From positions 434,001 through 498,000 of the forward strand of contig VLTN01000013.1 of assembly GCA_008330645.1 (NCBI GenBank): a DNA stretch of 64,000 bases, written 5' to 3'. Every line of letters starts with the position of its first letter. The stretch's first letter is position 1. Shown one piece after another: positions 23,370-48,887 of this stretch. The notes beneath the pieces were generated by a model, which did not search any database, was not told where the DNA came from, and saw nothing but the letters and a program-made list of their open reading frames with translations. Both the position numbers and the translations under genes were made by a program. The stretch is from Cafeteria roenbergensis (taxonomy: Eukaryota > Sar > Bigyra > Bicosoecida > Cafeteriaceae).

Positions 23370-26300
23370 TCACGGCGAGGGGGAGGCAGACGGCGGGTCG
23401 GTTGCAGTCTCAAGCAGGCCGTCTGGCGCCGTCCTCCTGCGGGAAACCGTGGCCTGGCGCTCCTTCGCCAGGTTCTCCGCCCCAACCGCGCCACGTGGCT
23501 TGACGCGAAGCAGCGCAGTCGACGCCGCGAAGATCGACGCCCGCAGCGCCTTCAGCCGCTTGGGCGCCCGACGCGCCCCACCGTCGCCCGCCGCGCCCGA
23601 GTCCTCTCCCACGGCCGGAGCAACCGGCGCCGACGGTCCCCGGCCGCGCGCCGCCCGGAGCGATGCCATGCGACGGTCCTCGTCCTCGTGCACCGCCTCG
23701 CAGGCCGGCCACCAGGGCGGAACCGAGCCCAGCGCCTTGCCCGGGGCATCAGCGGCGCCGCACCCGCACACGCGCCCGCAGCAAGCAGCGCCGCGCCGCA
23801 CCACCCCCGCGGCCCCCTCCCCGCCCGCGGCCTCCTCGCCCGACCCCTCAAGCGCCACCGCCCAGGCGAACGGAAGCGCGGACACTCCCACGAGCACACC
23901 GAGGACGCACACCGCCACGACGGCTCCCAGCACGCTCGCGATGGCCTCCGTCCCTGCCCCGCCCACCGCGTCCAGCAGCCCCACGCCCGACCCCAGCGCT
24001 GCCGTGCGCTCCGCCTGGCTCGAGGCCTGGCTCGCCGCCTCGAGGCTCTCGGCCGTCGCGCTCCCCGCCGTCCCCGCTCCGTCACGGGCCCACCACGACA
24101 GCAGCAGCATCCCGTCCACCACCGCCGCCCCAGCAAGCGCGAACGCAGCCATGGCGTCCACCGACGGCATGCCCGGCAGCCTCGCCCTCGCCGCCCTCGC
24201 GCGGTCGTTGTCCAGCGTCAGGCTGGCCGGGTCGGACACCTCCTCGGGTGACAGTCCGGCCTGGGACGGCCCGGCAGCCACAGCCGCCACAGCCGACGCC
24301 TCGGACGCCGGCAAGATGCCCATGTCGGCGCGCATCGCCTTGCGAACCAGATCCTGTCGGGCCTGGCCCACGCTGAAGCCGGACGAGCCGCCACGCGGCC
24401 GGGGCCGACGGCCGGCCAGCGGGTTGGCAGTGCCGGAGAAGGACCCATGCAGCGGCGACAGCGACGGGCCAGGCAGCGCTGCTCGCTCCTTGCCTGCCCC
24501 CGAGGCGCCGGGCCTCGACTGGCCGCCCGGGCTCGTCGATGCGTCCTCCTCCGCGTCGTGGGCAGCCGTGGCCGCCGCCTCCTGCAGCACTCGGCCTGTC
24601 AGCCACTGACCGAACTCCAGCGACGAGCGAGCCGGCGGCCGGGCCTCCAGCACCGCGCTACGGGCCGCGCTCTCGGCGGCCAGCAGCACCGTTTCGGCGC
24701 TGATCCGCGGCATCTGTGACAGCCGCCGATCGCAGTGGCCTCGCGCCGCCGCAGCCCCGTAGAGCAAAAACAGAACCGCGCACGCCAGCGTGAACTGCGA
24801 CGACGGCCCCACCATGCCAACGCCAGCCGATGCCGCCAGCAGCCGCAGCACGAACCACCACACCACGTCCCGCACGCCCGCACTCAGTGCACGCGCCGCA
24901 TTCGGCTTGCTCCGGTGCACTGTCAGCGCCCACGCCGGCCACGTCAGCGTGAAGGCCGCCGGCACCCCGCGGCGAAACAGCACCGTCCCCTGAGTCACCG
25001 ACACCGCCGCGCCTGTGCGACCGCTCAGCAGCGACCCCACCGGCGGCGATGCCGCCCCCACCGGGCTCGCCCCTGCCACCGGGCTGCTCGACCCGGACGC
25101 CAGCACGCCCGGCGCGCCCCGGCCCGGAGGCGCGAACGAGGGCGACGTCCCGACCTCATCGCCCACAGCGCGACCGGGCACTCGCCGCGCACCCGCGGAA
25201 AACGACACGTGCCGCGGCTCAACCTTGGCAGACGCCGCCACAGCGCTCGCAGCCCACCTCCCCACAACCACGAGCACCACGAGCCCGGTCGCCGCCCAGG
25301 CCGCCGCAACGAAGGGCGCCGCTGCCAGCACCGTGCTCACCTCGTCCCCACTGGACCAGCCCGCGGGCACGTTCGTGGCCAGCTGCAGCACCACGCGCGA
25401 CGACGACGCCGCACTGCCCGAGCCGCCAGGACCGCCCGACAGCGCGGGCTCAACTGACGACCCGTCCGACTCGGGCAGCGCAATGGCCGCCGAGTACTGC
25501 ACCGCGACCGTCACGCTCCGAGGCAGCGACAGCAGCGACCATACCCCCGCCCCGGCGACCAGGAACCGCGCCAGCGACGGCGCCGCCACTGCGCCGGGCA
25601 CCGGGGCATCGCGCGGGTTCGTCCTCGCCGCCCACCAGACAACCGCCCCGCGCGTCGCAAGCCACGCCAGCACCCCGCACGCCGGCCCCACCGCCGCCAC
25701 GCACAGCACAGGCCAGCCCAGGCCCGTCAGCGCGAAGGAGTCCGCCGGCGACACCCCGCCCAGCAACCAGCACGCCGCCTCGTGCGTCGTCACAGGCACG
25801 CCGAACCCCACCACCTCCGCTGCCAGCCGAAGCCAGCGCACGAGCCACGGGCTCGCGCCGGGCTGGGCGTCCACCGCGAAGGCGAGCACCTGAGCGGCCG
25901 CCACCGCGTGCAGCGCCACCGACGCGCGGGCGGCCAGCGACGCCGGACGGGCCAGCGCCAGGACCAGCCGCCGGGCCTCGCGGCGGATCACGCCCACCGC
26001 GGCCGCCGTGGGCGCCAGGCGCCACGACTGCCCCGACCCCGACCCGCCCGCCTCGGGCGAGCACGCGGCCTTGGCAGCACACGCCGCCTCCGCGGCCAGC
26101 GCCTCGGCGCTTGCTGCGATGCCCTCGCCCTGGCCCTCCTCGGACAGACTCCGCACATCCACGATGCCGGTCACCACATCCGCAGCCGGAGCCGCGCCCC
26201 ACGCCCACAGCGTCGTCAGCCACACCGCCCACACCAGGCCCACCACGCTCGCCACCATGAACACCGCGCCCTCGTCGGACGCGCACTCCACGCACGGCGC

Positions 26301-29300
26301 TCGCACTCCCGCCGTCACAGGCGAGTGCGCGTAGCCTGCCCAGCACTCGCCGCACAGCGGCCCGCTGTGGCCCTCAGAGCACACGCCCTCCACGCCGGTC
26401 ACCACCAAGCCGCCCCCGCCAGCGCCCGCAGCGTCGCCATCCGACTCGCCCTCGGGAACCATCCGGCCCGCGTCGTCCGGCGACATGGACCCCGTGAACT
26501 CGCACGCGCCAGACAGCGGGCAGGGGTGCAGCCGCGTGCCATACCCGCTCGCATCCGCACTCTGCAGCGCCCGGCCGCTGCCGGCGCGCTGGGGCTCTGC
26601 GCTGCCCGTGCGAGCCGAGAGCGAGCCTGCACCCGCCTCGGACCCCGCCGACGCGCCCTCGCTGTCCGACACAGTCTCCACCCACCAGCCTGGGAGCGCG
26701 AACAGCACGCCACCCTCGCAGTGGGCGCCGCGCGGCGGACACGCCAAGCACTCACGCGCGCCCGGCCCGGCGTAGCTCCCGGACGGACACACGCGGCACA
26801 CACGCGACACCGAGTCCAGCGTCGGCGACTCGCTCACCGACCCTCGCGGGCAGCGCTCGCACAGCCCGAACAACAGCTCGGCCACCCGCGAAGAGCCAGA
26901 GCCCCGACGCCACGGCGACAGCACGCCAGCCGCCGCCGCCGCGCCCAGCCCCGCCCGGCCGCTCGCCGCCTGTGCCGCCGAGGACAGCACCGCACGCACC
27001 AGCGTCGCGTTGCTCGTCAGGCCGTGCCCCGCCGCGCACCCGCACAGCGCCGACCCCGCAGACAGCGCCGACAAGCGACTCGACGCGCTGCAGTTCGCCG
27101 CCGGAATGGACACCGACACGTCCACGCCGGACCGCCACACCGATGACTCGCTCCCCGACGACGACCCGCCTGCGGCGTCGCTGCTGCCCGCCGCACTGCT
27201 GCCCGCCGCGCCCGATGCAGCCGCCGCGCTCTCAACCGTCAGTGACACCCGCACACTCCCCGACCGAGACGCCGACACCGACACTGCGAAGCCGAGCACG
27301 CCAAGCGACTCGGCCGGCGGCACTCCCCCGCTGCCCATGCTCGGCACCACGGACCCTGGCGGCGACCACGAGGCGAGCTCCGCCAGCGCGCCCGACTGGG
27401 TTCCGTGCTCCTCCCCCGTCCCCACCGCAATCGACGATGCCACCTCCCCGCCCCGGAGCAGCACCCCCGTCACCGACGCCGATGCCCCGGAGGACGCCGC
27501 CCCGCCCGCCGCGCTCCGCACCACGCTCGCGGACACTCGGGCACGACCCCCAAACGGAGACAGCGACGACGCCAACACGCCCGCTGCGCTCTGGTTCACC
27601 ACCGCCACCAGCCGGGCCACGCCGTACGCATCGCGCGGCACCACGACCACAGCCGCGTCCTCAGACGACACGAACGGCACCTCGCCCTCGCCCGCCACTG
27701 ACACAGACTCGCCCGCCGACGAAGACGACGCGGACCACTGCGCCGAGGACGACGCGCCCGCCGACGAGCCCAGCGCCATCGCAGCCTGCACAAGACCCGT
27801 CAGCGACAGGTCCGGCCCAGACACCAGCGCAACGCGGTCCGGGCCATCCTCCCCATCCCCGGCCGCACGCGCCGCGGAGCTGGGCGGGACCACCACCAGG
27901 GTGCGCGACGGCGACGCTCCGCCGGTGGATGGCAGCGCCCGCACCTCGATCTGCCGAATCTCGGGCGCCCGGCGAGCCGCGCCACCCACCGCCTCCTCCA
28001 GCTGGAACCCAACCGTCGCCACGGCGCTGAACAGCGACGGCACACCCGAAGACACCGCGGCCGGCATCGTCTGTGCGCTGTACTGCCCCGATAGCAACAG
28101 CTCCAGCGACGATCCCGGCGCGAGCACCGGCGCCCCAGACGAGTCCCGCTTCACCACACCCGTCACATCGTCCACCGCCACCGCGAGCCACGACGGGAGG
28201 CCACGCGACGCCTCCGCGAAGTCCAGCGCAGCGCCGAGTGCCGCCATCGCCCCGGCCGCATCGCCGCCCGCGCTGCCGCCACAGGCCCCCGCACTCGCAT
28301 TGGCCCCGCCACTGCTCGCTGCAAACGACGCGAACGCCGAGGCCTCGTCCACACGCCCCCCTCGAACGCCCACACGCGGCTCAAGCGCGCCGCGCTGCCG
28401 CCCAGGTTCGACACCCGCACGCGCTGCAGCAGCTCGGACGACGGCACAGCCCCCGACGATAACACCGCCGCCAGCGCCGACCGGTCTCGCACCGCGCCGA
28501 GCGGCGCCCCGCCTGCCAGGCGCCGGGTCAGCGACGACGAGTTGGCCACCAGCGCAGCGGCCGCGAACGGCGTCAGACGCCCGCCCGAACCCAGCGACGA
28601 CGGCGACCAGCCTCCGCCCCACTCAGGCCACAGCTGGCGCGACACGCCCGACGACGGGCACACTCCCAGCGCAGTCAGGCGCAGCGTCCACGGCACGACC
28701 ACCCGAGATCCCGGCAGCAGCGGGTCCGCCGCCGCGACCGCCACGCCCGTTGAGTACGTCGCAGGTGGCAGCGCGTCCAGCCCAGATACCGACAGGTCCA
28801 GCGACAGCGACGCCGACCCGGCGAGCGACCCGCACGCCACATCGCGCGACGCATTGGCCCATGCAGTGATGCCCGTCCCGCTCGCCAGCGCCGCGTCCAC
28901 AACCGCCGTGTCGCACTGCGCGCTGCTCCGGTTCGCCTCGTCCCACGCCTCGATGGCCGGGAGCGCCGACCCCGCGCCCAGGCCCAGTGCCTCACGACTC
29001 TGCGCCGCCGACCAGTCGAACGACGCCCAGCACGCGGGCTCCGACAGTGCCACCGCCCACTTCACCGACGAGCTCCCCTCGTTGCTCCCGACCAGCTGAC
29101 CCACACGAGCAGCTCCTGTCGCGTTGCCCACCCCCTCGCCGGACAGCAGCCGCCCGCGGCGGTTCGGCGGCGACGATGGCGCGGCTACGGGCGACGGAGA
29201 CACGCCCCCTCCCGAGGCGAGCGCTGACGACGCCAAGTTCACCGTGCGGTCCACCGAGGCCGGGAAGACCCGCAGCGACGGCAGCACCACCGCCAGCCCC

Positions 29301-32300
29301 AGCAGCAGCGCCGGCGCATCGCTCTGCACGCCAAGCGCCCCGCACGACAACGACAGCGCCTGCACAGACACCGCGGTCTCCAGCACCGACCAGTGGCCGC
29401 CCAGCCCTCCAGCCAGGCCCGGCCCCGCCGCAGCAGCCTCCGACGCCAGCACGGCCGCCTCGGACGCGCCTCGCGCCCGAGCTCGAGCCAGGACCCCGCC
29501 CGCATCCACACCCCCGCCCACGCCCGGAACCAGCGACTCCAGCCCGCCGAAGCACACGCGCACGGTCTGACTCCGCTCCTCGCTCGCCGCACCCGCACCC
29601 GCACCGATCGACACGTCGTCCACCGTCACCCACACGCGGGCCTGGCCCGTGGGCTCCGCAGCCGCGCCCGGTGCCCCGCACAGCCCAGCCGCGGTCACGG
29701 ACGACGCGTCCATCTCGAACAGCGCGTCGCCCGTGACGTCCAGCAGCACCGGCGCCCAGCTCACGTTGCCGGCCACCGACGCAAGCACCGCCTGGGCCGC
29801 ACACACCGTCAGCCGCCCGCCCGCTCCCGTGTCGAGGAACAGCGACCCCGCAGGCGCCGAGCGCCGGTCAGTGGCAGGCGGCAGCGACGCAGCTGCGCCG
29901 GACGCAGCCGACATGGCCGCCGCGGCCGACCGCAAAGACGACAGGCCCGCTGCGGCGAACACCGGCGCCGGAAGCACGCGCACTGGCTCGGCGAGCCCCT
30001 CTTGGCGAGACACCCGGTCGTCCTCGGCGCGGCGCTCCTCCTCCGTCAGCGGCGCGCTCGACGCCGACGCGGACGCCCCGGGCGAGGGCACAGGCGACCG
30101 GGTCGGACTCGGAGACTCGCGCCGCTTCCAAGGCGTCGGGGTCGATGACGGGGTCGGCGTGTGCGATGGCGACGCCGTCAGCGTGGCGGTCGTCGACGAC
30201 GACGGCGTGGCGGCGGCCGACCGCGTCGTCGAGGGCGTGGGCGTGCTGGACGACGACGGCACCGGCTGGTACTCAGGCCGCCCCCGAAGCGCCACCAGCA
30301 CCACGGACCCCACGGTCCCCGGCCCCACCGGCGGCCGGTCGTCGTCCGGCCGGCCGAGCGCCAGCACGAACGTCGTCCGGTTCGGGCCCAGCGGCGCCGC
30401 CAGCGTCTGCTCGAACGGCCCCGTCGGAAGCAGCGCCAAAGCCGACCCGAAGCCGTCGTTCGGCTTGAGCGGCGAGTACCCGCCGATGGACGACGACATC
30501 ACGCGGGTCACGCCCCGCGCCGCCTGGCCCTCGCCGCGAAGCCACACCACCCACACGCACGCCGAGTCGGACGAGGTCGTCGACGCCAGACCGCGCCCGC
30601 GCCCGCGCCTGCGCCGGCGATCCGCGACCGACTGCGCCGCTGCGCACGACACCGAGCCCGCCACAGCATCCTGAAAGCCGTCGCCGTCGATGTCCCCCGG
30701 GAGCGCGAGCGACGTGCCCACTCCCATCGCGTCCGCCTCGGCCGGAAGTGCGATCAGCGTGGGGCTCTCCAGCGCACCCGAGCTGCCCACCGCCGCGACT
30801 GCCAAGTGCCCGCCGCCACGGCCTGGCGCCCCGGCCACCACCAGCCAGCGCTCAGTCGTGGCGGCCGCACGCGACGGGCCGGACCCCCACAGCGATGCCG
30901 TCGCGGCCAGCGCGTTCCCGAGCTTCTCCGCCGACCCGTCGCCCAGCGGCAGCCCCGCCCCGCTCAGCAGCACGCGCGACGACAGCACGTCCCCGTCGGG
31001 CCTGACGTCCAGCGCCATCACCTGCCCCGCCGACCCCGACAGCGCGAGCGACCCCACCAGCACAGACGCAGCCGACACCGACACCACTCCACCCGCAGAC
31101 AGCCCCTGCGACGGGGGCATCGCGAGCACCGATGCGCCGAAGAACTGCGCGCTCCCCGCAGGCCGCGACAGCCGCGAGAACTGCAGCAGGTACGGCACCC
31201 CGCCCGGGCTGTCCACACCCACCCACGCCGCGTACACGCTCGAGACCTCGAACAGCCCCATCGCGACCAGCGTCACGCGCATCGCCGACCCCGGGAGCTC
31301 GCCACGCGTCGACGACACGTCCACGGCCGACAGCGACACCTGCGAGGCCTCCACCTCGGGCCAACCGATCAGCGCCTGGGCGCGCGCCGTGCCGTTGATC
31401 ACCGCCAGCACCCGAAGGCTCGGACCAGACGACGCCGACGACAGCGAGCGGCGGGGCGCGGGCGGGGCACCGGACGGCGATGCGGACGCTGATGGCGTGG
31501 GCGCCAGGCCGTGGCTCCCGGCCGACGGGCTCAGCAGAGCGATGAACGGCCGCGCGAGGCCGGCAGCAGAGCCGGCGGTGAACCCCGCCACAGCGACGTC
31601 CCCACCCCACCCGTCCCAGTCCACGTCGCCCAGATGGGCCACGGCGGTGCCGAACCGCGCGCCCTCGCTCACGCCCACGCCGCAGCACGGCGCCGCGAAG
31701 ACGGGACCGCCAACGGTGGACACCTCCGCCCCGGCGACACCCGGGGAGGGCGTCGCCGTGGGTGTGGGGACAGCCGTTGCGGCCGTTGGGGTCGTGGAGG
31801 CAGTCGGCGAAGCAGTCACGGATGCCTTGGGGGAGGTGGTGGCTGTCGGCGAAGCAGTCACGGATGCCGTGTGGGAGGCTGTGGGTGTGGACGTCGATGA
31901 GGGAGCTGGGAAGCGCGATGAGCTTGAGGTCGGAGTCGCGGAGCTGCTGGGGCTTGCTGTGGGCGCAGTGGAGACTGAAGGAAGCGTCGCTGGAGATGGA
32001 GAAGCGGACGGTGAAGGGGTGACAGGTCCGGCAGACACGGTTTGCCACTGAAATCCAGTTGCGTTGAGCATCACAGGCGTCATGAACGGCGGGGATGCAC
32101 CCTGAGGGTTTGCAACCGTCATTAGGGCCACAGAGACCGCCGTTGCCTCACCCTCAAACAGTTTTGTTGCTGCTTGTGGGATCATCACCTGTGCAAGCAC
32201 CCGAATGCAAACAATGTCGGATTCTGCAAAGCCGGCAGGCAGCCTGCTTCCTTGTCCTTGGATCTGAAGCAAGCCAGTTGTCGCTCCGAGAAAATCCACG

Positions 32301-34033
32301 CACTTGCGGATGCTGCGGCCGTGCTTAGGGTCACGCAAATTGACCCCGCCGCGTGCAAGGCCGGCAAGCATCGTTGCATTGAGGCGTGTTCGGTTCTGTT
32401 CCCAGGCTTCTGGCGCTGGTCCCTCGCTGCCGTAGCCGAAGTCTTCACTTGCCACAGCTGCCATGAGATCGATCCAGTCCACTTCTTGCGGAAGTGACTC
32501 GGGTCCGCTTGCAGATTTTGACGCAAAAAAGCTGCCGTTCGGTTGAAGAAATGCAACGGCGTAGTCCAAGGTTACATACGCATAGCCTTCTGGCCGACGG
32601 CCTGCCAGGGTGTCCGGAACGAAATCTCCTAACTGGACCATTGGAATAAGCAGATCAGCCTCTGACGCATTGTGGACCCGAACCAAGTCCTTGGGGTCCG
32701 CTACTGCTACATCCAGCACGCCAGAGCTCAATGTTGTCACGTGGGCTCCCGTCGGCACTGCAATTGCTCGAATTGCTGGCGGCGTCCGAGAGTGAGAGGA
32801 GCTGCATTCTCGGGATGCGACATTTGAACCGCGAAGCGCAAGGTCAGCACCCTCAACCGGCAATGGCCCTTGACCAGCCTGGGGGAACATGCGGGTCCCT
32901 GATACGAACACCTTGCTGCGTTTGGACACTGTCAGCTTGGCTTTTCGAGCTCTGACCATAGAATATGGTGAAAGTGTCCTCGAGTCCGAAGCATCCGAAC
33001 TTGGGGCTCCCAGGTAATCGATTCCCGTCGAGGCTTTCGCAACTGTGAGCGCGCCAGTGACGAGCATGCTGCCTGAAGAAGTGACTGCAGTGACGCGGCC
33101 GGCCTCGGGGGACCTCATCAGGCCGTCTTCCAAGATCTGGGCACCCACGTCATGCACCTCCGACCACGGCGCAGCCATCAGGGCCGAACCCCCTGCAACC
33201 ACCAAGTGGCGGGCTCGGGCCGAGGCAAGCATGTCCTCCGCCTCCACGGTCGTCGTCCCGTCCGCACCAAGGGTGGTCGTGTTGCCCGCCACCAGCGGCT
33301 CGCCAGCCGGGAGCATCACGGGGGGCAGCAGGGGCGGCGGCCGGCCGGCCGCTAGGGCTGCGGCTTGAGCCAGCCGTAGCTGCTCCAGCGTTGGCGTGTA
33401 ACTGGTGACGGACGTTGTGAACTCCTCGACGATTGCAAAACTCGATCCAAAGCCAGCAAGGCTAGCAGAATACACCGCGTGAGACTGACTCCTTCCTATG
33501 TGCGCGGTGGACGGCGAGTATGGCCCGAGGTTGAAGCCGAGAGCCTCCGCCTCCCGCCAGCGCGGGTCGGCAACCGGAAACACGCGCAGCTGCCGAAGCG
33601 CCGTCCCGATGAACAGCGGCGAGCACGCCGTCCGGCCCGGAGCGCCCGCGCTCATGTTCATGTTCCCCGGCAGCAGCACGCGCCACTCGCCCTCTGTCAC
33701 CGCGGCCTGGGCGAGCGCTTGCGGCGCGAGTCCGATCGAGCTGAGTCCGTCGGGGCGGCCGACCACGCCCCCGCCGCAGCCGTGCGCGAACGAGGCGGCG
33801 GCAGCAGCCATGAGGCTCGATGATCCATCGAACACGGCGGGGGCCGGGCAGGCGGCGCTCCAATGACTGCGGCCGTCCGGCGAGGAGGTTGGCTCGGCGG
33901 CCTCGGAACGCCTGCGAGGTGGCATCGCTCGCCCTCCAGAGCTCCAAAGCACGTCCATGCCCCGGCGGGCTCCGCCCTCCACTGAACAGCCAAACACGAG
34001 AACCAGGGCGGCAGCCAAGAATCTTCTGGCCAT
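23370..34033 (-). CDS. Giant surface protein, left tandem copy, frame split by one base
   Basis: This is the left paralog of a tandem pair. The N-terminal part (34033 to about 28360) starts at MARRFLAAALVLVFG, a clear signal peptide. It continues through an ectodomain, a Ser/Thr/Pro stalk (about 31760-31990), FG-GAP-like integrin repeats (GDVDWDGWGGDVAVAG, GDIDGDGFQDAVAGS, NDGFGSALALLPTG) and a second Ser/Thr/Pro stretch (about 30070-30270). The C-terminal part (about 28360 to 23370) holds a Cys-rich segment (CERCPRG to CSEGHSGPLCGECWAGY, about 26300-26870) and about eight hydrophobic helices. The two frames meet at a C tract (28356-28361) of six C, where the right copy has seven. All else across the junction is collinear with the right copy, so this is a real frameshift or a base-calling error. 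The function is unknown; adhesion or recognition at the cell surface is inferred from the architecture. Confidence 0.8.
23447..31830. repeat. Left member of an ~8.4-kb near-identical tandem duplication
   Basis: This block aligns without gaps, except for one C at 28361, to 34747-43131, offset by 11,300 and then 11,301 bp. By eye I count about 50 differences, roughly 99.4% identity. They are concentrated in the first 1.5 kb and sparse elsewhere; for example 25063 to about 26710 looks identical. The left border falls four codons before the genes' C-terminal ends diverge. The right border falls in the first Ser/Thr/Pro stalk. Confidence 0.9.
31835..33120 (-). other. Divergent ectodomain segment V2 of the left copy, low GC
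   Basis: This coding segment of the left surface protein has only scattered similarity to the matching part of the right copy (43135-44280). Shared residues are patterns such as NLRDP, a Pro-Asn-Gly hairpin (LQPNGSFF against LHPNGTYV) and DWIDL against DWLDL, so it is a distant homologue rather than unrelated sequence. Its base composition is close to 55% GC by eye, well below the roughly 75% of the flanks. It may come from a different family member by recombination. Confidence 0.65.
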
Positions 34034-34690: not shown

Positions 34691-37600
34691 TCAGCCGATC
34701 GCGGCGACATCCGCCGAGCTTGCATCAGGCACTCGGCGACGAGACACCGTGGCCTGGCGCTCCTTCGCCAGGTTCTCCGCCCCAACCGCGCCACGCGGCT
34801 TGGCGCGAAGCAGCGCAGTCGACGCCGCGAAGATCGACGCCCGCAGTGCCTTCAGCCGCTTGGGCGCCCGACGCGCCCCACCGTCGCCCGCCGCGCCCGA
34901 GTCCTCTCCCACGGCCGGAGCAACCGGCGCCGACGGGCCCCGGCCGCGCGCCGCCCGGAGCGATGCCATGCGACGGTCCTCGTCCTCGTGCACCGCCTCG
35001 CAGGCCGGCCACCAGGGCGGAACCGAGCCCGGCGCCTTGCCCGGGGCATCAGCGGCGCCGCACCCGCACACGCGCCCGCAGCAAGCAGCGCCGCGCCGCA
35101 CCACCCCCGCGGCCCCCTCCCCGTCCGCGGCCTCCTCGCCCGACCCCTCAAGCGCCACCGCCCAGGCGAACGGAAGCGCGGACACTCCCACGAGCACACC
35201 GAGGACGCACACCGCCACGACGGCTCCCAGCACGCTCGCGATGGCCTCCGTCCCTGCCCCGCCCACCGCGTCCAGCAGCCCCACGCCCGACCCCAGCGCT
35301 GCCGTGCGCTCCGCCTGGCTCGAGGCCTGGCTCGCCGCCTCGAGGCTCTCGGCCGTCGCGCTCCCCGCCGTCCCCGCTCCGTCACGGGCCCACCACGACA
35401 GCAGCAGCATCCCGTCCACCACCGCCGCTCCAGCCAGCGCGAACGCAGCCATGGCGTCCACCGACGGCATGCCCGGCAGCCTCGCCCTCGCCGCCCTCGC
35501 GCGGTCGTTGTCCAGCGTCAGGCTGGCCGGGTCGGACACCTCCTCGGGTGACAGTCCGGCCTGGGACGGCCCGGCAGCCACAGCCGCCACAGCCGACGCC
35601 TCGGACACCGGCAAGATGCCCATGTCGGCGCGCATCGCCTTGCGAACCAGATCCTGTCGGGCCTGGCCCACGCTGAAGCCAGACGAGCCGCCACGCGACC
35701 GGGGCCGACGGCCGGCCAGCGGGTTGGCAGTGCCGGAGAAGGACCCATGCAGCGGCGACAGCGACGGGCCAGGCAGCGCTGCTCGCTCTTTGCCTGCCCC
35801 CGAGGCGCCGGGCCTCGACTGGCCGCCCGGGCTCGTCGATGCGTCCTCCTCCGCGTCGTGGGCAGCCGTGGCCGCCGCCTCCTGCAGCACTCGGCCTGTC
35901 AGCCACTGACCAAACTCCAGCGACGAGCGAGCCGGCGGCCGGGCCTCCAGCACCGCGCCACGGGCCGCGCTCTCGGCGGCCAGCAGCACCGTTTCGGCGC
36001 CGATCCGCGGCATCTGTGACAGCCGCCGATCGCAGTGGCCCCGCGCCGCCGCAGCCCCGTAGAGCAAAAACAGAACCGCGCACGCCAGCGTGAACTGCGA
36101 CGACGGCCCCACCATGCCAACGCCAGCCGATGCCGCCAGCAGCCGCAGCACGAACCACCACACCACGTCCCGCACGCCCGCACTCAGTGCACGCGCCGCA
36201 TTCGGCTTGCTCCGGTGCACTGTCAGCGCCCACGCCGGCCACGTCAGCGTGAAGGCCGCCGGCACCCCGCGGCGAAACAGCACCGTCCCCTGAGTCACCG
36301 ACACCGCCGCGCCTGTGCGACCGCTCAGCAGCGACCCCACCGGCGGCGATGCCGCCCCGACCGGGCTCGCCCCTGCCACCGGGCTGCTCGACCCGGACGC
36401 CAGCACGCCCGGCGCGCCCCGGCCCGGAGGCGCGAACGAGGGCGACGTCCCGACCTCATCGCCCACAGCGCGACCGGGCACTCGCCGCGCACCCGCGGAA
36501 AACGACACGTGCCGCGGCTCAACCTTGGCAGACGCCGCCACAGCGCTCGCAGCCCACCTCCCCACAACCACGAGCACCACGAGCCCGGTCGCCGCCCAGG
36601 CCGCCGCAACGAAGGGCGCCGCTGCCAGCACCGTGCTCACCTCGTCCCCACTGGACCAGCCCGCGGGCACGTTCGTGGCCAGCTGCAGCACCACGCGCGA
36701 CGACGACGCCGCACTGCCCGAGCCGCCAGGACCGCCCGACAGCGCGGGCTCAACTGACGACCCGTCCGACTCGGGCAGCGCAATGGCCGCCGAGTACTGC
36801 ACCGCGACCGTCACGCTCCGAGGCAGCGACAGCAGCGACCATACCCCCGCCCCGGCGACCAGGAACCGCGCCAGCGACGGCGCCGCCACTGCGCCGGGCA
36901 CCGGGGCATCGCGCGGGTTCGTCCTCGCCGCCCACCAGACAACCGCCCCGCGCGTCGCAAGCCACGCCAGCACCCCGCACGCCGGCCCCACCGCCGCCAC
37001 GCACAGCACAGGCCAGCCCAGGCCCGTCAGCGCGAAGGAGTCCGCCGGCGACACCCCGCCCAGCAACCAGCACGCCGCCTCGTGCGTCGTCACAGGCACG
37101 CCGAACCCCACCACCTCCGCTGCCAGCCGAAGCCAGCGCACGAGCCACGGGCTCGCGCCGGGCTGGGCGTCCACCGCGAAGGCGAGCACCTGAGCGGCCG
37201 CCACCGCGTGCAGCGCCACCGACGCGCGGGCGGCCAGCGACGCCGGACGGGCCAGCGCCAGGACCAGCCGCCGGGCCTCGCGGCGGATCACGCCCACCGC
37301 GGCCGCCGTGGGCGCCAGGCGCCACGACTGCCCCGACCCCGACCCGCCCGCCTCGGGCGAGCACGCGGCCTTGGCAGCACACGCCGCCTCCGCGGCCAGC
37401 GCCTCGGCGCTTGCTGCGATGCCCTCGCCCTGGCCCTCCTCGGACAGACTCCGCACATCCACGATGCCGGTCACCACATCCGCAGCCGGAGCCGCGCCCC
37501 ACGCCCACAGCGTCGTCAGCCACACCGCCCACACCAGGCCCACCACGCTCGCCACCATGAACACCGCGCCCTCGTCGGACGCGCACTCCACGCACGGCGC

Positions 37601-40600
37601 TCGCACTCCCGCCGTCACAGGCGAGTGCGCGTAGCCTGCCCAGCACTCGCCGCACAGCGGCCCGCTGTGGCCCTCAGAGCACACGCCCTCCACGCCGGTC
37701 ACCACCAAGCCGCCCCCGCCAGCGCCCGCAGCGTCGCCATCCGACTCGCCCTCGGGAACCATCCGGCCCGCGTCGTCCGGCGACATGGACCCCGTGAACT
37801 CGCACGCGCCAGACAGCGGGCAGGGGTGCAGCCGCGTGCCATACCCGCTCGCATCCGCACTCTGCAGCGCCCGGCCGCTGCCGGCGCGCTGGGGCTCTGC
37901 GCTGCCCGTGCGAGCCGAGAGCGAGCCTGCACCCGCCTCGGACCCCGCCGACGCGCCCTCGCTGTCCGACACAGTCTCCACCCACCAGCCTGGGAGCGCG
38001 AACAGCACGCCGCCCTCGCAGTGGGCGCCGCGCGGCGGACACGCCAAGCACTCACGCGCGCCCGGCCCGGCGTAGCTCCCGGACGGACACACGCGGCACA
38101 CACGCGACACCGAGTCCAGCGTCGGCGACTCGCTCACCGACCCTCGCGGGCAGCGCTCGCACAGCCCGAACAACAGCTCGGCCACCCGCGAAGAGCCAGA
38201 GCCCCGACGCCACGGCGACAGCACGCCAGCCGCCGCCGCCGCGCCCAGCCCCGCCCGGCCGCTCGCCGCCTGTGCCGCCGAGGACAGCACCGCGCGCACC
38301 AGCGTCGCGTTGCTCGTCAGGCCGTGCCCCGCCGCGCACCCGCACAGCGCCGACCCCGCAGACAGCGCCGACAAGCGACTCGACGCGCTGCAGTTCGCCG
38401 CCGGAATGGACACCGACACGTCCACGCCGGACCGCCACACCGATGACTCGCTCCCCGACGACGACCCGCCGGCGGCGTCGCTGCTGCCCGCCGCACTGCT
38501 GCCCGCCGCGCCCGATGCAGCCGCCGCGCTCTCAACCGTCAGTGACACCCGCACACTCCCCGACCGAGACGCCGACACCGACACTGCGAAGCCGAGCACG
38601 CCAAGCGACTCGGCCGGCGGCACTCCCCCGCCGCCCATGCTCGGCGCCACGGACCCTGGCGGCGACCACGAGGCGAGCTCCGCCAGCGCGCCCGACTGGG
38701 TTCCGTGCTCCTCCCCCGTCCCCACCGCAATCGACGATGCCACCTCCCCGCCCCGGAGCAGCACCCCCGTCACAGACGCCGATGCCCCGGAGGACGCCGC
38801 CCCGCCCGCCGCGCTCCGCACCACGCTCGCGGACACTCGGGCACGACCCCCAAACGGAGACAGCGACGACGCCGACACGCCCGCTGCGCTCTGGTTCACC
38901 ACCGCCACCAGCCGGGCCACGCCGTACGCATCGCGCGGCACCACGACCACAGCCGCGTCCTCAGACGACACGAACGGCACCTCGCCCTCGCCCGCCACTG
39001 ACACAGACTCGCCCGCCGACGAAGACGACGCGGACCACTGCGCCGAGGACGACGCGCCCGCCGACGAGCCCAGCGCCATCGCAGCCTGCACAAGACCCGT
39101 CAGCGACAGGTCCGGCCCAGACACCAGCGCAACGCGGTCCGGGCCGTCCTCCCCATCCCCGGCCGCACGCGCCGCGGAGCTGGGCGGGACCACCACCAGG
39201 GTGCGCGACGGCGACGCTCCGCCGGTGGATGGCAGCGCCCGCACCTCGATCTGCCGAATCTCGGGCGCCCGGCGAGCCGCGCCACCCACCGCCTCCTCCA
39301 GCTGGAACCCAACCGTCGCCACGGCGCTGAACAGCGACGGCACACCCGAAGACACCGCGGCCGGCATCGTCTGTGCGCTGTACTGCCCCGATAGCAACAG
39401 CTCCAGCGACGATCCCGGCGCGAGCACCGGCGCCCCAGACGAGTCCCGCTTCACCACACCCGTCACATCGTCCACCGCCACCGCGAGCCACGACGGGAGG
39501 CCACGCGACGCCTCCGCGAAGTCCAGCGCAGCGCCGAGTGCCGCCATCGCCCCGGCCGCATCGCCGCCCGCGCTGCCGCCACAGGCCCCCGCACTCGCAT
39601 TGGCCCCGCCACTGCTCGCTGCAAACGACGCGAACGCCGAGGCCTCGTCCACACGCCCCCCCTCGAACGCCCACACGCGGCTCAAGCGCGCCGCGCTGCC
39701 GCCCAGGTTCGACACCCGCACGCGCTGCAGCAGCTCGGACGACGGCACAGCCCCCGACGACAACACCGCCGCCAGCGCCGACCGGTCTCGCACCGCGCCG
39801 AGCGGCGCCCCGCCTGCCAGGCGCCGGGTCAGCGACGACGAGTTGGCCACCAGCGCAGCGGCCGCGAACGGCGTCAGACGCCCGCCCGAACCCAGCGACG
39901 ACGGCGACCAGCCTCCGCCCCACTCAGGCCACAGCTGGCGCGACACGCCCGACGACGGGCACACTCCCAGCGCAGTCAGGCGCAGCGTCCACGGCACGAC
40001 CACCCGAGATCCCGGCAGCAGCGGGTCCGCCGCCGCGACCGCCACGCCCGTTGAGTACGTCGCAGGTGGCAGCGCGTCCAGCCCAGACACCGACAGGTCC
40101 AGCGACAGCGACGCCGACCCGGCGAGCGACCCGCACGCCACATTGCGCGACGCATTGGCCCATGCAGCGATGCCCGTCCCGCTCGCCAGCGCCGCGTCCA
40201 CAACCGCCGTGTCGCACTGCGCGCTGCTCCGGTTCGCCTCGTCCCACGCCTCGATGGCCGGGAGCGCCGACCCCGCGCCCAGGCCCAGTGCCTCACGACT
40301 CTGCGCCGCCGACCAGTCGAACGACGCCCAGCACGCGGGCTCCGACAGTGCCACCGCCCACTTCACCGACGAGCTCCCCTCGTTGCTCCCGACCAGCTGA
40401 CCCACACGAGCAGCCCCGGTCGCGTTGCCCACCCCCTCGCCGGACAGCAGCCGCCCGCGGCGGCCCGGCGGCGACGATGGCGCGGCTACGTGCGACGGAG
40501 ACACGCCCCCTCCCGAGGCGAGCGCTGACGACGCCAAGTTCACCGTGCGGTCCACCGAGGCCGGGAAGACCCGCAGCGACGGCAGCACCACCGCCAGCCC

Positions 40601-43600
40601 CAGCAGCAGCGCCGGCGCATCGCTCTGCACGCCAAGCGCCCCGCACGACAACGACAGCGCCTGCACAGACACCGCGGTCTCCAGCACAGACCAGTGGCCG
40701 CCCAGCCCTCCAGCCAGGCCCGGCCCCGCCGCAGCAGCCTCCGACGCCAGCACGGCCGCCTCGGACGCGCCTCGCGCCCGAGCTCGAGCCAGGACCCCGC
40801 CCGCATCCACACCCCCGCCCACGCCCGGAACCAGCGACTCCAGCCCGCCGAAGCACACGCGCATGGTCTGACTCCGCTCCTCGCTCGCCGCACCCGCACC
40901 CGCACCGATCGACACGTCGTCCACCGTCACCCACACGCGAGCCTGGCCCGTGGGCCCCGCAGCCGCGCCCGGTGCCCCGCACAGCCCAGCCGCGGTCACG
41001 GACGACGCGTCCATCTCGAACAGCGCGTCGCCCGTGACGTCCAGCAGCACCGGCGCCCAGCTCACGTTGCCGGCCACCGACGCAAGCACCGCCTGGGCCG
41101 CACACACCGTCAGCCGCCCGCCCGCTCCCGTGTCGAGGAACAGCGACCCCGCAGGCGCCGAGCGCCGGTCAGTGGCAGGCGGCAGCGACGCAGCTGCGCC
41201 GGACGCAGCCGACATGGCCGCCGCGGCCGACCGCAAAGACGACAGGCCCGCTGCGGCGAACACCGGCGCCGGAAGCACGCGCACTGGCTCGGCGAGCCCC
41301 TCTTGGCGAGACACCCGGTCGTCCTCGGCGCGGCGCTCCTCCTCCGTCAGCGGCGCGCTCGACGCCGACGCGGACGCCCCGGGCGAGGGCACAGGCGACC
41401 GGGTCGGACTCGGAGACTCGCGCCGCTTCCACGGCGTCGGGGTCGACGACGGGGTCGGCGTGTGCGATGGCGACGCCGTCAGCGTGGCGGTCGTCGACGA
41501 CGACGGCGTGGCGGCGGCCGACCGCGTCGTCGAGGGCGTGGGCGTGCTGGACGACGACGGCACCGGCTGGTACTCAGGCCGCCCCCGAAGCGCCACCAGC
41601 ACCACGGACCCCACGGTCCCCGGCCCCACCGGCGGCCGGTCGTCGTCCGGCCGGCCGAGCGCCAGCACGAACGTCGTCCGGTTCGGGCCCAGCGGCGCCG
41701 CCAGCGTCTGCTCGAACGGTCCCGTCGGAAGCAGCGCCAAAGCCGACCCGAAGCCGTCGTTCGGCTTGAGCGGCGAGTACCCGCCGATGGACGACGACAT
41801 CACGCGGGTCACGCCCCGCGCCGCCTGGCCCTCGCCGCGAAGCCACACCACCCACACGCACGCCGAGTCGGACGAGGTCGTCGACGCCAGACCGCGCCCG
41901 CGCCCGCGCCTGCGCCGGCGATCCGCGACCGACTGCGCCGCTGCGCACGACACCGAGCCCGCCACGGCATCCTGAAAGCCGTCGCCGTCGATGTCCCCCG
42001 GGAGCGCGAGCGACGTGCCCACTCCCATCGCGTCCGCCTCGGCCGGAAGTGCGATCAGCGTGGGGCTCTCCAGCGCACCCGAGCTGCCCACCGCCGCGAC
42101 TGCCAAGTGCCCGCCGCCACGGCCTGGCGCCCCGGCCACCACCAGCCAGCGCTCAGTCGTGGCGGCCGCACGCGACGGGCCGGACCCCAACAGCGATGCC
42201 GTCGCGGCCAGCGCGTTCCCGAGCTTCTCCGCCGACCCGTCGCCCAGCGGCAGCCCCGCCCCGCTCAGCAGCACGCGCGACGACAGCACGTCCCCGTCGG
42301 GCCTGACGTCCAGCGCCATCACCTGCCCCGCCGACCCCGACAGCGCGAGCGACCCCACCAGCACAGACGCAGCCGACACCGACACCACTCCACCCGCAGA
42401 CAGCCCCTGCGACGGGGGCATCGCGAGCACCGATGCGCCGAAGAACTGCGCGCTCCCCGCAGGCCGCGACAGCCGCGAGAACTGCAGCAGGTACGGCACC
42501 CCGCCCGGGCTGTCCACACCCACCCACGCCGCGTACACGCTCGAGACCTCGAACAGCCCCATCGCGACCAGCGTCACGCGCATCGCCGACCCCGGGAGCT
42601 CGCCACGCGTCGACGACACGTCCACGGCCGACAGCGACACCTGCGAGGCCTCCACCTCGGGCCAGCCGATCAGCGCCTGGGCGCGCGCCGTGCCGTTGAT
42701 CACCGCCAGCACCCGAAGGCTCGGACCCGACGACGCCGACGACAGCGAGCGGCGGGGCGCGGGCGGGGCACCGGACGGCGATGCGGACGCTGATGGCGTG
42801 GGCGCCAGGCCGTGGCTCCCGGCCGACGGGCCCAGCAGAGCGATGAACGGCCGCGCGAGGCCGGCAGCAGAGCCGGCGGTGAACCCCGCCACAGCGACGT
42901 CCCCACCCCACCCGTCCCAGTCCACGTCGCCCAGATGGGCCACGGCGGTGCCGAACCGCGCGCCCTCGCTCACGCCCACGCCGCAGCACGGCGCCGCGAA
43001 GACGGGACCGCCCACGGTGGACACCTCCGCCCCGGCGACACCCGGGGAGGGCGTCGCCGTGGGTGTGGGGACGGCCGTTGCGGCCGTTGGGGTCGTGGAG
43101 GCAGTCGGCGAAGCAGTCACGGATGCCGTGGGGGAGGCCGAGGGTGTGGACGTCGACGTGAGCGTCGGCGAGGGCGTTGCACTCGGCGTCGGTGCCGCAG
43201 AGGGACTCTGGCTCGGGGCAACTTGCGAAGTTGTCAACGCAATGCTTGAGACAAGGCCATGGTCGCGTCCTCTTCCTGCGGAGTTGTGGGTCGCGACTTG
43301 GACGCTGGTGTTTGCCACAACCAGGCCGCTGCCAAAGAGCTCGTCGACGGCCCGGGGGACTTTGACCTGAACGAGAAGCCGGTAACACAGCACGTCGTCT
43401 AGTACGGAGCCGGGGGGAAGACGGGTGAATGACCCAGAAGCACTTCCAAGGTTCAAACCACTGCCGAATAGCTGCCTGCAGGGCTGCAGCGACGGCCCGA
43501 CCCGAGGGTCCCGCAGGTTCAATCCGCCCCGAGCGAAGCCTGTTGTCTGTGTGGCGTTCATCTCCGTCCCGTTGGACGCCCATACCTGCGGCATGGTTGC

Positions 43601-45202
43601 AATCAGGCCATCGTCTTCGGTGAAGAAGCTGAGGCGAAGCGACAGGTCCAGCCAGTCGACGTCATCAGGGATGGCGTCCGCGCCCCTCAGGGTCGGAGAT
43701 GTCACGTAGGTGCCGTTGGGGTGCAGGAACACAATGCCGACGTCCAAAAGAGCGTAGAACCAGCCGTCGGCTCGGTTGCCAGCCGCAACGGGCGACAGCG
43801 TGTCTGCAAGCTGCACGGTCGGAAGAAAGACGTCCCACGGCGTTGCATCGGCTCGCGTGCCAAAGTCTGCTGCATCTGACGCTGCTGCGAGCCCCCCGCG
43901 CCCAGACACGTAGGCTTGGAAGTGTGGCGATGTAAACACAGCCGCTCTGGTGCGTGGCGGCCCTGATCGCGCAGTCCCGGCACACTCTGTCGTCGCCAGC
44001 GCCGCCCCACGACCAGCCACATCCCCCCCATCCCCGCCCCCAGTCGTCGCCCCTGCACCGCCCAGCCACGGCCGCCCGCGCGTCCCTCCGAGCACCACCC
44101 GCGCGCCTCGTGACACGACAAGCCGTCCCCGTGTGCGCTCGAAAGCCTCGCCAGTCCACGTTGCCGTCGGGTCCGTAGACAGCGGAAGCGCCCCCGATGT
44201 CGGGGAGTCGCGCGCCACCGTCAGCGCGCCCACCCGCAGCGAGCTGGAGGCGGGGACCACTGCCATGACGCGGCCTGGTGGCGGCGATCTGGCCAAGCCG
44301 TCTTCCAAGATCTGGGCACCCAAGTCGTGCACCTCCGACCACGGTGCAGCCATCAGAGCCGCACCCCCTGCAACCACCAAGTGGCGGGCTCGGGCCGAGG
44401 CAAGCATGTCCTCCGCCTCCACGGCCGTCGTCCCGTCCGCACCAAGCGTGGTCGTGTTGCCCGCCACCAACGGCTCGCCGGCCGGGAGCATCACGGGGGG
44501 CAGCAGGGGCGGCGGCCGGCCGGCAGCCAGGGCCGTGGCTTGAGCCAGCCGCAGCTCCTCCAGCGTCGGGCTGAACGTGGGAATCTCCACGACCTGCTCG
44601 TCGCCAATGTCAAGCCGCGCTTGCCCGTCAAAGACAGCCACAGTCTCCACCATCTGCGCACGGGAGTAGCCGAGCGTGCCCGTGAACCCGGGCTCGGGGT
44701 CCGTCCCAAGGGCCCGGTCCTCCGCCTCTCGCCAGCGCGGGTCGGCAACCGGAAACACGCGCAGCTGCCGAAGCGCCGTCCCGATGAACAGCGGCGAGCA
44801 CGCCGTCCGGCCCGGAGCGCCCGCGCTCATGTTCATGTTCCCAGGCAGCAGCACGCGCCACTCGCCCTCCGTCACCGCGGCCTGGGCGAGCGCTTGCGGA
44901 GCGAGTCCGATCGAGCTGAGTCCGTCGGGGCGGCCGACCACGCCCCCGCCGCAGCCGTGCGCGAACGATGCGGCGGCAGCAGCCATGAGGCTCGACGATC
45001 CATCGAACACGGCGGGGGCCGGGCAGGCGGCGCTCCAGTGGCCTGGGCTTGGCAGATTCGAGACGGCTTCTGCCAGCTTTCTGCGAGTCCCGTCGTTCCT
45101 AACTCCGGTGCTGTGGTCTATAGCAGCGCTTGCGACACACAGGAGGAGTGCCCACGTCGTCAAGATCGCCTTCGCGTCGAGCTTCCGGGATTTTTTGCCC
45201 AT
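34691..45202 (-). CDS. Giant surface protein, right tandem copy, intact
   Basis: An intact intronless frame of 3,503 residues from the ATG at 45202 (MGKKSRKLDAKAILTTWALL); the next 15 residues complete a signal peptide. Ectodomain block A (GHWSAACPAPAVFDG) is followed by variable and conserved blocks and then a Ser/Thr/Pro stalk near residue 700. FG-GAP-like repeats lie at about 750, 1075 and 1155. A second Ser/Thr/Pro stretch lies near 1250, then long Ser/Ala-rich beta-type regions. A Cys-rich segment at about 2350-2530 resembles GCC2/GCC3 or EGF-like repeats of protist receptors. About eight helices lie between 2540 and 3350, ending in a cytosolic tail with VSRRRVPDASSADVAAIG. Many NxT/S sites suggest N-glycosylation. 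I know no named family with this order of parts. A surface adhesion, recognition or sensing role is inference. Confidence 0.87.
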   Translation of the reverse strand: MGKKSRKLDAKAILTTWALLLCVASAAIDHSTGVRNDGTRRKLAEAVSNLPSPGHWSAACPAPAVFDGSSSLMAAAAASFAHGCGGGVVGRPDGLSSIGLAPQALAQAAVTEGEWRVLLPGNMNMSAGAPGRTACSPLFIGTALRQLRVFPVADPRWREAEDRALGTDPEPGFTGTLGYSRAQMVETVAVFDGQARLDIGDEQVVEIPTFSPTLEELRLAQATALAAGRPPPLLPPVMLPAGEPLVAGNTTTLGADGTTAVEAEDMLASARARHLVVAGGAALMAAPWSEVHDLGAQILEDGLARSPPPGRVMAVVPASSSLRVGALTVARDSPTSGALPLSTDPTATWTGEAFERTRGRLVVSRGARVVLGGTRGRPWLGGAGATTGGGDGGDVAGRGAALATTECAGTARSGPPRTRAAVFTSPHFQAYVSGRGGLAAASDAADFGTRADATPWDVFLPTVQLADTLSPVAAGNRADGWFYALLDVGIVFLHPNGTYVTSPTLRGADAIPDDVDWLDLSLRLSFFTEDDGLIATMPQVWASNGTEMNATQTTGFARGGLNLRDPRVGPSLQPCRQLFGSGLNLGSASGSFTRLPPGSVLDDVLCYRLLVQVKVPRAVDELFGSGLVVANTSVQVATHNSAGRGRDHGLVSSIALTTSQVAPSQSPSAAPTPSATPSPTLTSTSTPSASPTASVTASPTASTTPTAATAVPTPTATPSPGVAGAEVSTVGGPVFAAPCCGVGVSEGARFGTAVAHLGDVDWDGWGGDVAVAGFTAGSAAGLARPFIALLGPSAGSHGLAPTPSASASPSGAPPAPRRSLSSASSGPSLRVLAVINGTARAQALIGWPEVEASQVSLSAVDVSSTRGELPGSAMRVTLVAMGLFEVSSVYAAWVGVDSPGGVPYLLQFSRLSRPAGSAQFFGASVLAMPPSQGLSAGGVVSVSAASVLVGSLALSGSAGQVMALDVRPDGDVLSSRVLLSGAGLPLGDGSAEKLGNALAATASLLGSGPSRAAATTERWLVVAGAPGRGGGHLAVAAVGSSGALESPTLIALPAEADAMGVGTSLALPGDIDGDGFQDAVAGSVSCAAAQSVADRRRRRGRGRGLASTTSSDSACVWVVWLRGEGQAARGVTRVMSSSIGGYSPLKPNDGFGSALALLPTGPFEQTLAAPLGPNRTTFVLALGRPDDDRPPVGPGTVGSVVLVALRGRPEYQPVPSSSSTPTPSTTRSAAATPSSSTTATLTASPSHTPTPSSTPTPWKRRESPSPTRSPVPSPGASASASSAPLTEEERRAEDDRVSRQEGLAEPVRVLPAPVFAAAGLSSLRSAAAAMSAASGAAASLPPATDRRSAPAGSLFLDTGAGGRLTVCAAQAVLASVAGNVSWAPVLLDVTGDALFEMDASSVTAAGLCGAPGAAAGPTGQARVWVTVDDVSIGAGAGAASEERSQTMRVCFGGLESLVPGVGGGVDAGGVLARARARGASEAAVLASEAAAAGPGLAGGLGGHWSVLETAVSVQALSLSCGALGVQSDAPALLLGLAVVLPSLRVFPASVDRTVNLASSALASGGGVSPSHVAAPSSPPGRRGRLLSGEGVGNATGAARVGQLVGSNEGSSSVKWAVALSEPACWASFDWSAAQSREALGLGAGSALPAIEAWDEANRSSAQCDTAVVDAALASGTGIAAWANASRNVACGSLAGSASLSLDLSVSGLDALPPATYSTGVAVAAADPLLPGSRVVVPWTLRLTALGVCPSSGVSRQLWPEWGGGWSPSSLGSGGRLTPFAAAALVANSSSLTRRLAGGAPLGAVRDRSALAAVLSSGAVPSSELLQRVRVSNLGGSAARLSRVWAFEGGRVDEASAFASFAASSGGANASAGACGGSAGGDAAGAMAALGAALDFAEASRGLPSWLAVAVDDVTGVVKRDSSGAPVLAPGSSLELLLSGQYSAQTMPAAVSSGVPSLFSAVATVGFQLEEAVGGAARRAPEIRQIEVRALPSTGGASPSRTLVVVPPSSAARAAGDGEDGPDRVALVSGPDLSLTGLVQAAMALGSSAGASSSAQWSASSSSAGESVSVAGEGEVPFVSSEDAAVVVVPRDAYGVARLVAVVNQSAAGVSASSLSPFGGRARVSASVVRSAAGGAASSGASASVTGVLLRGGEVASSIAVGTGEEHGTQSGALAELASWSPPGSVAPSMGGGGVPPAESLGVLGFAVSVSASRSGSVRVSLTVESAAAASGAAGSSAAGSSDAAGGSSSGSESSVWRSGVDVSVSIPAANCSASSRLSALSAGSALCGCAAGHGLTSNATLVRAVLSSAAQAASGRAGLGAAAAAGVLSPWRRGSGSSRVAELLFGLCERCPRGSVSESPTLDSVSRVCRVCPSGSYAGPGARECLACPPRGAHCEGGVLFALPGWWVETVSDSEGASAGSEAGAGSLSARTGSAEPQRAGSGRALQSADASGYGTRLHPCPLSGACEFTGSMSPDDAGRMVPEGESDGDAAGAGGGGLVVTGVEGVCSEGHSGPLCGECWAGYAHSPVTAGVRAPCVECASDEGAVFMVASVVGLVWAVWLTTLWAWGAAPAADVVTGIVDVRSLSEEGQGEGIAASAEALAAEAACAAKAACSPEAGGSGSGQSWRLAPTAAAVGVIRREARRLVLALARPASLAARASVALHAVAAAQVLAFAVDAQPGASPWLVRWLRLAAEVVGFGVPVTTHEAACWLLGGVSPADSFALTGLGWPVLCVAAVGPACGVLAWLATRGAVVWWAARTNPRDAPVPGAVAAPSLARFLVAGAGVWSLLSLPRSVTVAVQYSAAIALPESDGSSVEPALSGGPGGSGSAASSSRVVLQLATNVPAGWSSGDEVSTVLAAAPFVAAAWAATGLVVLVVVGRWAASAVAASAKVEPRHVSFSAGARRVPGRAVGDEVGTSPSFAPPGRGAPGVLASGSSSPVAGASPVGAASPPVGSLLSGRTGAAVSVTQGTVLFRRGVPAAFTLTWPAWALTVHRSKPNAARALSAGVRDVVWWFVLRLLAASAGVGMVGPSSQFTLACAVLFLLYGAAAARGHCDRRLSQMPRIGAETVLLAAESAARGAVLEARPPARSSLEFGQWLTGRVLQEAAATAAHDAEEDASTSPGGQSRPGASGAGKERAALPGPSLSPLHGSFSGTANPLAGRRPRSRGGSSGFSVGQARQDLVRKAMRADMGILPVSEASAVAAVAAGPSQAGLSPEEVSDPASLTLDNDRARAARARLPGMPSVDAMAAFALAGAAVVDGMLLLSWWARDGAGTAGSATAESLEAASQASSQAERTAALGSGVGLLDAVGGAGTEAIASVLGAVVAVCVLGVLVGVSALPFAWAVALEGSGEEAADGEGAAGVVRRGAACCGRVCGCGAADAPGKAPGSVPPWWPACEAVHEDEDRRMASLRAARGRGPSAPVAPAVGEDSGAAGDGGARRAPKRLKALRASIFAASTALLRAKPRGAVGAENLAKERQATVSRRRVPDASSADVAAIG
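34747..43131. repeat. Right member of the ~8.4-kb near-identical tandem duplication
   Basis: This is the partner of 23447-31830, in direct orientation. It has the seven-C tract (39656-39662) that keeps the reading frame open. It covers everything from the first Ser/Thr/Pro stalk to the cytosolic tail, so the stalk, FG-GAP, Cys-rich and membrane parts are shared while the N-terminal head differs. Confidence 0.9.
43135..44280 (-). other. Divergent ectodomain segment V2 of the right copy
   Basis: This segment matches the position of 31835-33120 in the left copy but differs in nearly every codon. It ends at the shared motif ILEDGLxRSP, where identity to the left copy resumes. It has its own Gly-rich insertion (GGAGATTGGGDGGDVAGRG). 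Confidence 0.7.
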
Positions 45203-48648: not shown

Positions 48649-48783
48649 GGAAACCACACGCGTGCGTGCGAGCACCTTTTGCAGCCGATGTGAAGGGGGG
48701 TGGGGGAGGGCTTTCGCCTGCCCGCGCGCTGCTGCGCCCTTTCGGAGTGCGGGAGCTGCAAGTTGAAGGATGCTTGCGACGAT

Positions 48784-48792
48784 GGCAATATA
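48784..48792 (-). promoter_or_regulatory. TATA-like element upstream of the carboxylesterase gene
   Basis: The minus strand reads CATATATTGC about 140 bp upstream of the carboxylesterase ATG. It stands out in GC-rich DNA and resembles the element at 23219-23228. Core promoter function is inferred. Confidence 0.35.
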
Positions 48793-48887
48793 TGACCACT
48801 GCTCGCGTGCTGGAGCGCGCAACTTGCTCGGGGCGTTGAGCCCGCGGAACGGATACGCTCGCCGGTGGCGCGGCCCTGACCGCAACG

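Follow-up and report, generated by a model that had tools for sequence, protein, structure and literature searches.

A tandem pair of giant putative surface-receptor genes in Cafeteria with diverged head segments on near-identical bodies

Two giant genes arranged in tandem in the genome of Cafeteria roenbergensis (now called C. burkhardae) form a mosaic in which old and recent divergence alternate, with the last switch falling inside the first P/S/T-rich stalk of the encoded protein. From these comparisons, the pair probably represents two paralogous giant surface receptors or adhesins whose bodies would have been homogenised by gene conversion while their head segments stayed diverse. An earlier note on this DNA had described two copies of a gene; the tandem pair is indeed there, but that description misses its main feature, the diverged head segments on a near-identical body.

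Alternating divergence along the gene pair

The genome comprises 36,303,456 bases in 167 contigs (GC ~70%), and the pair lies on contig C13 within the window analysed here (the whole stretch of 64,000 nucleotides). The list of open reading frames and a blastn comparison of the window with itself place both copies on the minus strand in direct orientation, in agreement with the earlier note. That note had also given both copies as a ~10.5-kb intronless gene. Copy B is indeed a single open frame, but copy A is not: the latter is split into two overlapping frames that separate near 28362, in a G run whose length is one base off relative to copy B. The same parts are found in both copies, in copy A spread over its two frames. 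The features are as follows.

34691-45202, minus strand: copy B, single open frame of ~3,500 codons (ATG at 45202, stop at 34691)
Start at 45268, minus strand: upstream start option for copy B (GTG) in the ORF list, giving 3,525 codons
45119-45175, minus strand: N-terminal hydrophobic stretch, signal-peptide-like by hydropathy
44719-45037, minus strand: island 1 in the copy B head, matching copy A 33544-33862 at 98.1% (blastn)
44567-44718, minus strand: diverged part of the copy B head, with one window of 30 codons that is 17% identical in amino acids
44294-44566, minus strand: island 2 in the copy B head, matching copy A 33119-33391 at 94.1% (blastn)
43138-44293, minus strand: main diverged part of the copy B head (copy A counterpart ~31837-33118)
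43043-43213, minus strand: first stalk of copy B, P/S/T-rich, residues ~686-742, containing the head-to-body switch
34740-43137, minus strand: near-identical body of copy B, matching copy A 23440-31836 at 99.38%
42911-42931, minus strand: FG-GAP-type calcium loop 1, residues 780-786
41978-41998, minus strand: FG-GAP-type calcium loop 2, residues 1091-1097
41351-41566, minus strand: second stalk of copy B, P/S/T-rich, residues ~1235-1306
38399-41350, minus strand: middle region of the ectodomain, without a Pfam match
37583-38398, minus strand: Cys-rich segment with a GCC2/DUF7630-like module, residues 2291-2562, directly before the first C-terminal membrane helix
35159-37582, minus strand: polytopic membrane region, ~eight hydrophobic peaks (hydropathy)
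34694-35158, minus strand: C-terminal tail, presumably cytosolic, final residues not alike between the copies
23370-34033, minus strand: copy A, whole, two overlapping frames
28163-34033, minus strand: first frame of copy A, from the head into the middle region; 1,956 codons, ATG start
23370-28622, minus strand: second frame of copy A (middle, Cys-rich and membrane parts, tail), 1,750 codons
23440-31836, minus strand: near-identical body of copy A (blastn)

The DNA identity profile along the pair shows sharp steps. The bodies align over 8,398 bp at 99.38% identity with one gap (dS ~0.015, 99.3% amino-acid identity). In the heads, blastn of the window against itself is limited to three matches: 319 bp (98.1%), 273 bp (94.1%) and 74 bp where head and body join. 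From residue 327 (counted from the ATG) to residue ~684, dS was saturated or above 1 in 13 of 13 windows of 30 codons, with amino-acid identities of 27-43% in 12 windows and 52% in one. Identities were similarly low in two N-terminal windows (26% and 37%) and lowest, at 17%, in a single window lying between the two islands. By the same measure the islands themselves are recent, with dS of 0.04-0.14 overall (0.04-0.09 in island 1, and 0.13-0.14 in the two central windows of island 2).

One account of this arrangement is a plain recent partial tandem duplication that set a young body beside an older paralogous head, with neither continuing exchange nor selection for variety. One gap and 0.6% differences across 8.4 kb would suit such a single recent event, but two separate near-identical islands sit in the diverged head and require more than one event, so a single partial duplication is insufficient. 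A near-identical stretch with old divergence on both sides also links two other contigs (C19 and C37, discussed below), and on this evidence we consider the account rather unlikely. Repeated gene conversion or unequal exchange is the simplest explanation of the mosaic.

Long open frames are in themselves little proof of a gene in this DNA, because GC is ~75% and frames of more than 1,000 codons occupy both strands of one stretch elsewhere in the window. The 51 body mismatches between the copies (in 8,396 bp) comprise 31 synonymous and 20 nonsynonymous changes, an excess of synonymous changes over the ~29% expected (p = 2.9e-6). Since one antisense frame almost equals this count (29/51), the excess alone does not fix the strand; taken with the protein features, it is evidence for a coding gene. 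Three other frames in the window carry recognizable domains: a 2,497-codon frame near the pair (9772-17265, minus) ends in a protein kinase domain (Pkinase, 5.8e-52), a 1,558-codon frame (17629-22305, plus) has a mechanosensitive-channel beta domain (9.8e-8), and a Carboxylesterase domain (3.9e-69) at 46894-49530 (minus) adjoins copy B.

Parts of the encoded protein

Copy B opens with a signal-peptide-like start, after which come the head and a P/S/T stalk that is probably glycosylated. An FG-GAP-type region, another stalk and an extended middle region follow, and next are the GCC2/DUF7630-like Cys-rich module and a run of about eight membrane helices. As the earlier note had reported, a Cys cluster and two P/S/T-rich stretches are present; P/S/T content peaks at residues 1201-1300 (54%) and 701-800 (39%), and 18 N-glycosylation sequons are dispersed along the chain. 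Hydropathy likewise agrees with the signal peptide and roughly eight membrane helices claimed there, with a scan of copy B giving eight C-terminal peaks (two overlapping end windows taken as one). Because the same scan was also positive at four sites in the ectodomain (residues 900, 958, 1544 and 1554), the number of helices is approximate.

Nothing in the copy B protein exceeded a Pfam cut-off. The best matches below cut-off were to DUF7630 (PF24633; 16.9 bits against a curated cut-off of 27 bits, E = 0.0073), an ELAPOR1-type TNFR domain (E = 0.79), an ephrin-receptor-like domain (E = 1.1) and FG-GAP_3 (E = 2.1). For the FG-GAP-type region, loops of the form GD[VILA]DxDG occur at residues 780 and 1091, and among 20,000 shuffled versions of the protein none contained two such loops (the pattern was composed after viewing the sequence). 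With C19/C37 profiles of the FG-GAP repeats and of the whole propeller, the matches were confined to short segments around the two loops and scored 0.7-3.8 bits, and by whole score copy B fell outside the best six of 301 sequences in both tests (copy B plus 300 locally shuffled copies of it). Of the FG-GAP-like repeats of the earlier note, two calcium loops are thus clear, and a complete, propeller-forming set of repeats stays putative. Structure prediction, also proposed there, produced no usable fold for the head and FG-GAP region (mean pLDDT 26.7) or for the Cys-rich and membrane region (mean pLDDT 34.4).

FG-GAP-type calcium loops are a feature that the pair shares with integrin alpha chains. 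Integrin alpha has a single C-terminal membrane helix. The pair differs in its ~eight hydrophobic peaks, its stalks, its Cys-rich module and in having only two clear loops, and we rejected an identity as an integrin alpha chain on the number of hydrophobic peaks.

The Cys-rich part has relatives among other giant genes of this genome. A profile from six relatives scored it at 20.0 bits, ranking it first of 501 sequences (the best of 500 locally shuffled controls reached 5.9 bits). Its Cys pattern of the DUF7630 type and its position before the first C-terminal membrane helix match those of the relatives. The motif CxxG[YHF]xGxxCxxCxxG[YFW], composed after viewing the sequences, lies in this stretch, appeared in 0 of 20,000 shuffles and, among the frames searched, is also found in giant frames on contigs C17, C4, C12 and C55. 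Alignment by hhalign of the pair's C-terminal part, which includes the Cys-rich module, was strongest against C4/C12 (E = 9.7e-5, probability 58%) and weak against C17/C55 (E = 0.0038), the TIG group (0.077) and C37 (0.082).

When 202 sequences, copy B among them, were searched with a profile of the whole Cys-plus-membrane part, there was nothing to report, whereas the shorter Cys-rich profile did match. Membrane helices 2-3 of the pair ranked 678 of 1,001, no better than shuffles, and a phage search found nothing matching the C-terminal 1,236 residues. Homology of the membrane region to TRP channels (PF06011) was considered and is unsupported, with no match at E up to 10.

Relatives and other giant genes of the genome

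Head and middle DNA of the pair (middle-region query 38399-41400) was found nowhere else in the genome than these two places, bar two weak stalk matches. These two, on C37 and C124, cover query residues 628-706, which are stalk, and were rejected as family members; a weak Cys-rich match on C8, by contrast, has a Cys pattern that marks it, judged by eye, as a true relative. At E up to 0.001, the genome holds at least 22 matches to FG-GAP, at least 20 to DUF7630, at least 16 to PF06011 and at least 144 to TIG (150 of 250 TIG candidates scored). Frames of at least 2,000 codons with at least one of these four domains make up 54 combinations of contig and frame length among the matches listed, a number in which allelic copies are possibly counted twice and from which the C13 pair is absent. 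TIG matches also lie in open frames of 16,961 and 13,593 codons (C8:604033 and C3:687783-712196).

Giant frames on C4, C12, C17 and C55 resemble the pair in being single long frames with a large ectodomain and the Cys motif ahead of a membrane region, though blastp found no similarity between them and the pair at E 1e-5. C4 and C12 have weak DUF7630 matches in Pfam; the scanned stretches of C17 and C55 had none at E up to 0.1. Among the matches listed, C4 is the sole frame with all four domains; in Pfam it shows FG-GAP (3.8e-9), eight TIG stretches (2.1e-61), TRP (1.1e-5) and DUF7630 (4.5e-4), the last two below cut-off, with DUF7630 above cut-off in the genome profile search. The FG-GAP, TIG and sub-cut-off TRP matches of C4 are absent or only weak in the pair. 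Likewise, frames on C4 and C7 carry a DUF7630 match followed by a match to PF06011 TRP-like channels, which the pair does not; with a TRP-like membrane part, C4 and C7 would be receptor-channels. The earlier note had found no named counterpart for the protein, which is only partly correct: the Cys-rich module resembles DUF7630, and many giant frames with FG-GAP, TIG, DUF7630 or TRP-like matches exist in the same genome.

We made four further gene comparisons, picked from the FG-GAP and DUF7630 matches and so not a random sample. Three have a diverged 5' part followed by a near-identical part (one of them mildly), and one lacks the step. In the C17 pair, dS is saturated or above 1 in the first ~190 compared codons, after which a 9.46-kb match runs at 98.9% identity; this match stops ~0.4 kb short of the frame ends, so that divergence returns in the tail and is not confined to the head. 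Between C19 copy 1 and C37, which lie on different contigs, the heads have ~44% amino-acid identity and dS of 0.64-1.75. A near-identical stretch then begins at the stalk end and extends over 17 windows of 60 codons (90-100% identity, dS 0-0.21, at most 0.1 in 14 of the 17), beyond which dS is 0.49 in a transition window and 0.28-1.16 in 14 windows. The step is milder between C67 and C83, with DNA identity of 79.8% upstream and 96-97% downstream. In the tandem pair on C19 the step is missing, the heads agreeing at 98.5% across 917 residues.

Two observations concern the make-up of these genes. At C19:176001-206000, the stalk of the tandem giant genes holds a long P/S/T repeat array with 114-bp spacing that differs between the copies. 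The upstream part of the C67/C83 giant frames is cadherin-repeat-like by eye; TIG, a match to DUF7630 and a number of hydrophobic helices lie downstream.

Frame breaks recur in duplicated giant genes: besides the one in copy A, C17 copy 1 is broken by an in-frame stop between two frames (91913-91915) and C19 copy 1 at ~192-193 kb. These breaks may be polishing errors or real decay, and they raise the question of assembly errors. Haplotypes or paralogues could have been misplaced in tandem, with the details of the mosaic arising as polishing artefacts. The position of copy A's break in a G run would fit this, as would two points from PMC6972860, that the organism appears diploid and that the assembly derives from PacBio (45x for strain BVI) and Illumina reads. 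However, neither the stretch between the copies nor their outer flanks are duplicated, the heads are diverged beyond what polishing would create, and a comparable pattern occurs in C17 and in C19/C37. We therefore hold an assembly effect to be highly improbable.

Possible roles in recognition

Diverged heads on a near-identical body are a pattern known from recognition receptors, and it appears to be present in some other giant genes here. If the pair does encode receptors or adhesins, the outer head would bind a ligand, which may be bacterial prey, conspecific cells or both. The shared body, including the stalks and the middle region, may act as a spacer that holds the head off the membrane, the Cys-rich module may form a rigid base, and the polytopic part would anchor the protein and possibly signal. 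Gene conversion or unequal exchange would homogenise the bodies, and head differences (dS saturated, in one strain) may persist because they are relevant to recognition. This agrees with the earlier note in so far as a giant, multi-part receptor or adhesin is the best reading; the recognition of prey, mates or self that it also suggested is something we infer.

In design, the nearest analogue by published descriptions is the MTA/MTB system of Tetrahymena, a likeness that carries no claim of membership or homology. According to PMC3608545 and PMC10901506, Tetrahymena thermophila MTA has a shared membrane exon (99.6%), a specific region with an average amino-acid identity of 42% (38-47%), a Cys-rich GFR domain and five helices. 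As described there, both systems thus combine a specific extracellular part of ~40% identity with a near-identical part that carries a Cys-rich domain and membrane helices. MTA and MTB differ in being head-to-head gene pairs with five helices and programmed somatic joining, whereas the Cafeteria pair is in tandem with ~eight helices.

This likeness raises the alternative that the pair is a self/non-self or mating-type locus, the diverged heads being the specificity segments and the body, with its Cys-rich and membrane parts, the shared half, as in MTA/MTB. The MTA figures are close to those of the pair (99.3% in the body, mostly 26-43% in the diverged windows). Yet the copies follow one another on the same strand and not head to head, and a similar step in other giant genes is more in keeping with a receptor repertoire than with a single mating locus. 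Moreover, PMC6972860 describes the species as having no known sexual cycle. We regard a mating-type locus as distinctly improbable.

More tentatively, the receptor reading might extend to a genome-wide repertoire in which stalks serve as joints, bodies are gene-converted even between contigs, and heads are kept or swapped. Such a repertoire could possibly serve prey, kin or mate recognition, in a manner like the Tetrahymena mating types but without homology to them.

We rate the pair as belonging among the giant modular surface proteins of protists, with an unusually clear head/body mosaic. A literature search covering mostly titles and abstract openings gave no account of this gene pair or of head-swapped giant Cafeteria receptors. 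If the receptor reading is true, the pair would provide concrete candidates for the recognition of prey or of its own kind in a bacterivorous marine flagellate, and a clear case, outside ciliates and animals, of concerted evolution of receptor bodies with head diversity preserved. The species is culturable and four strains have been sequenced, making the idea directly testable by comparing heads and bodies across strains.
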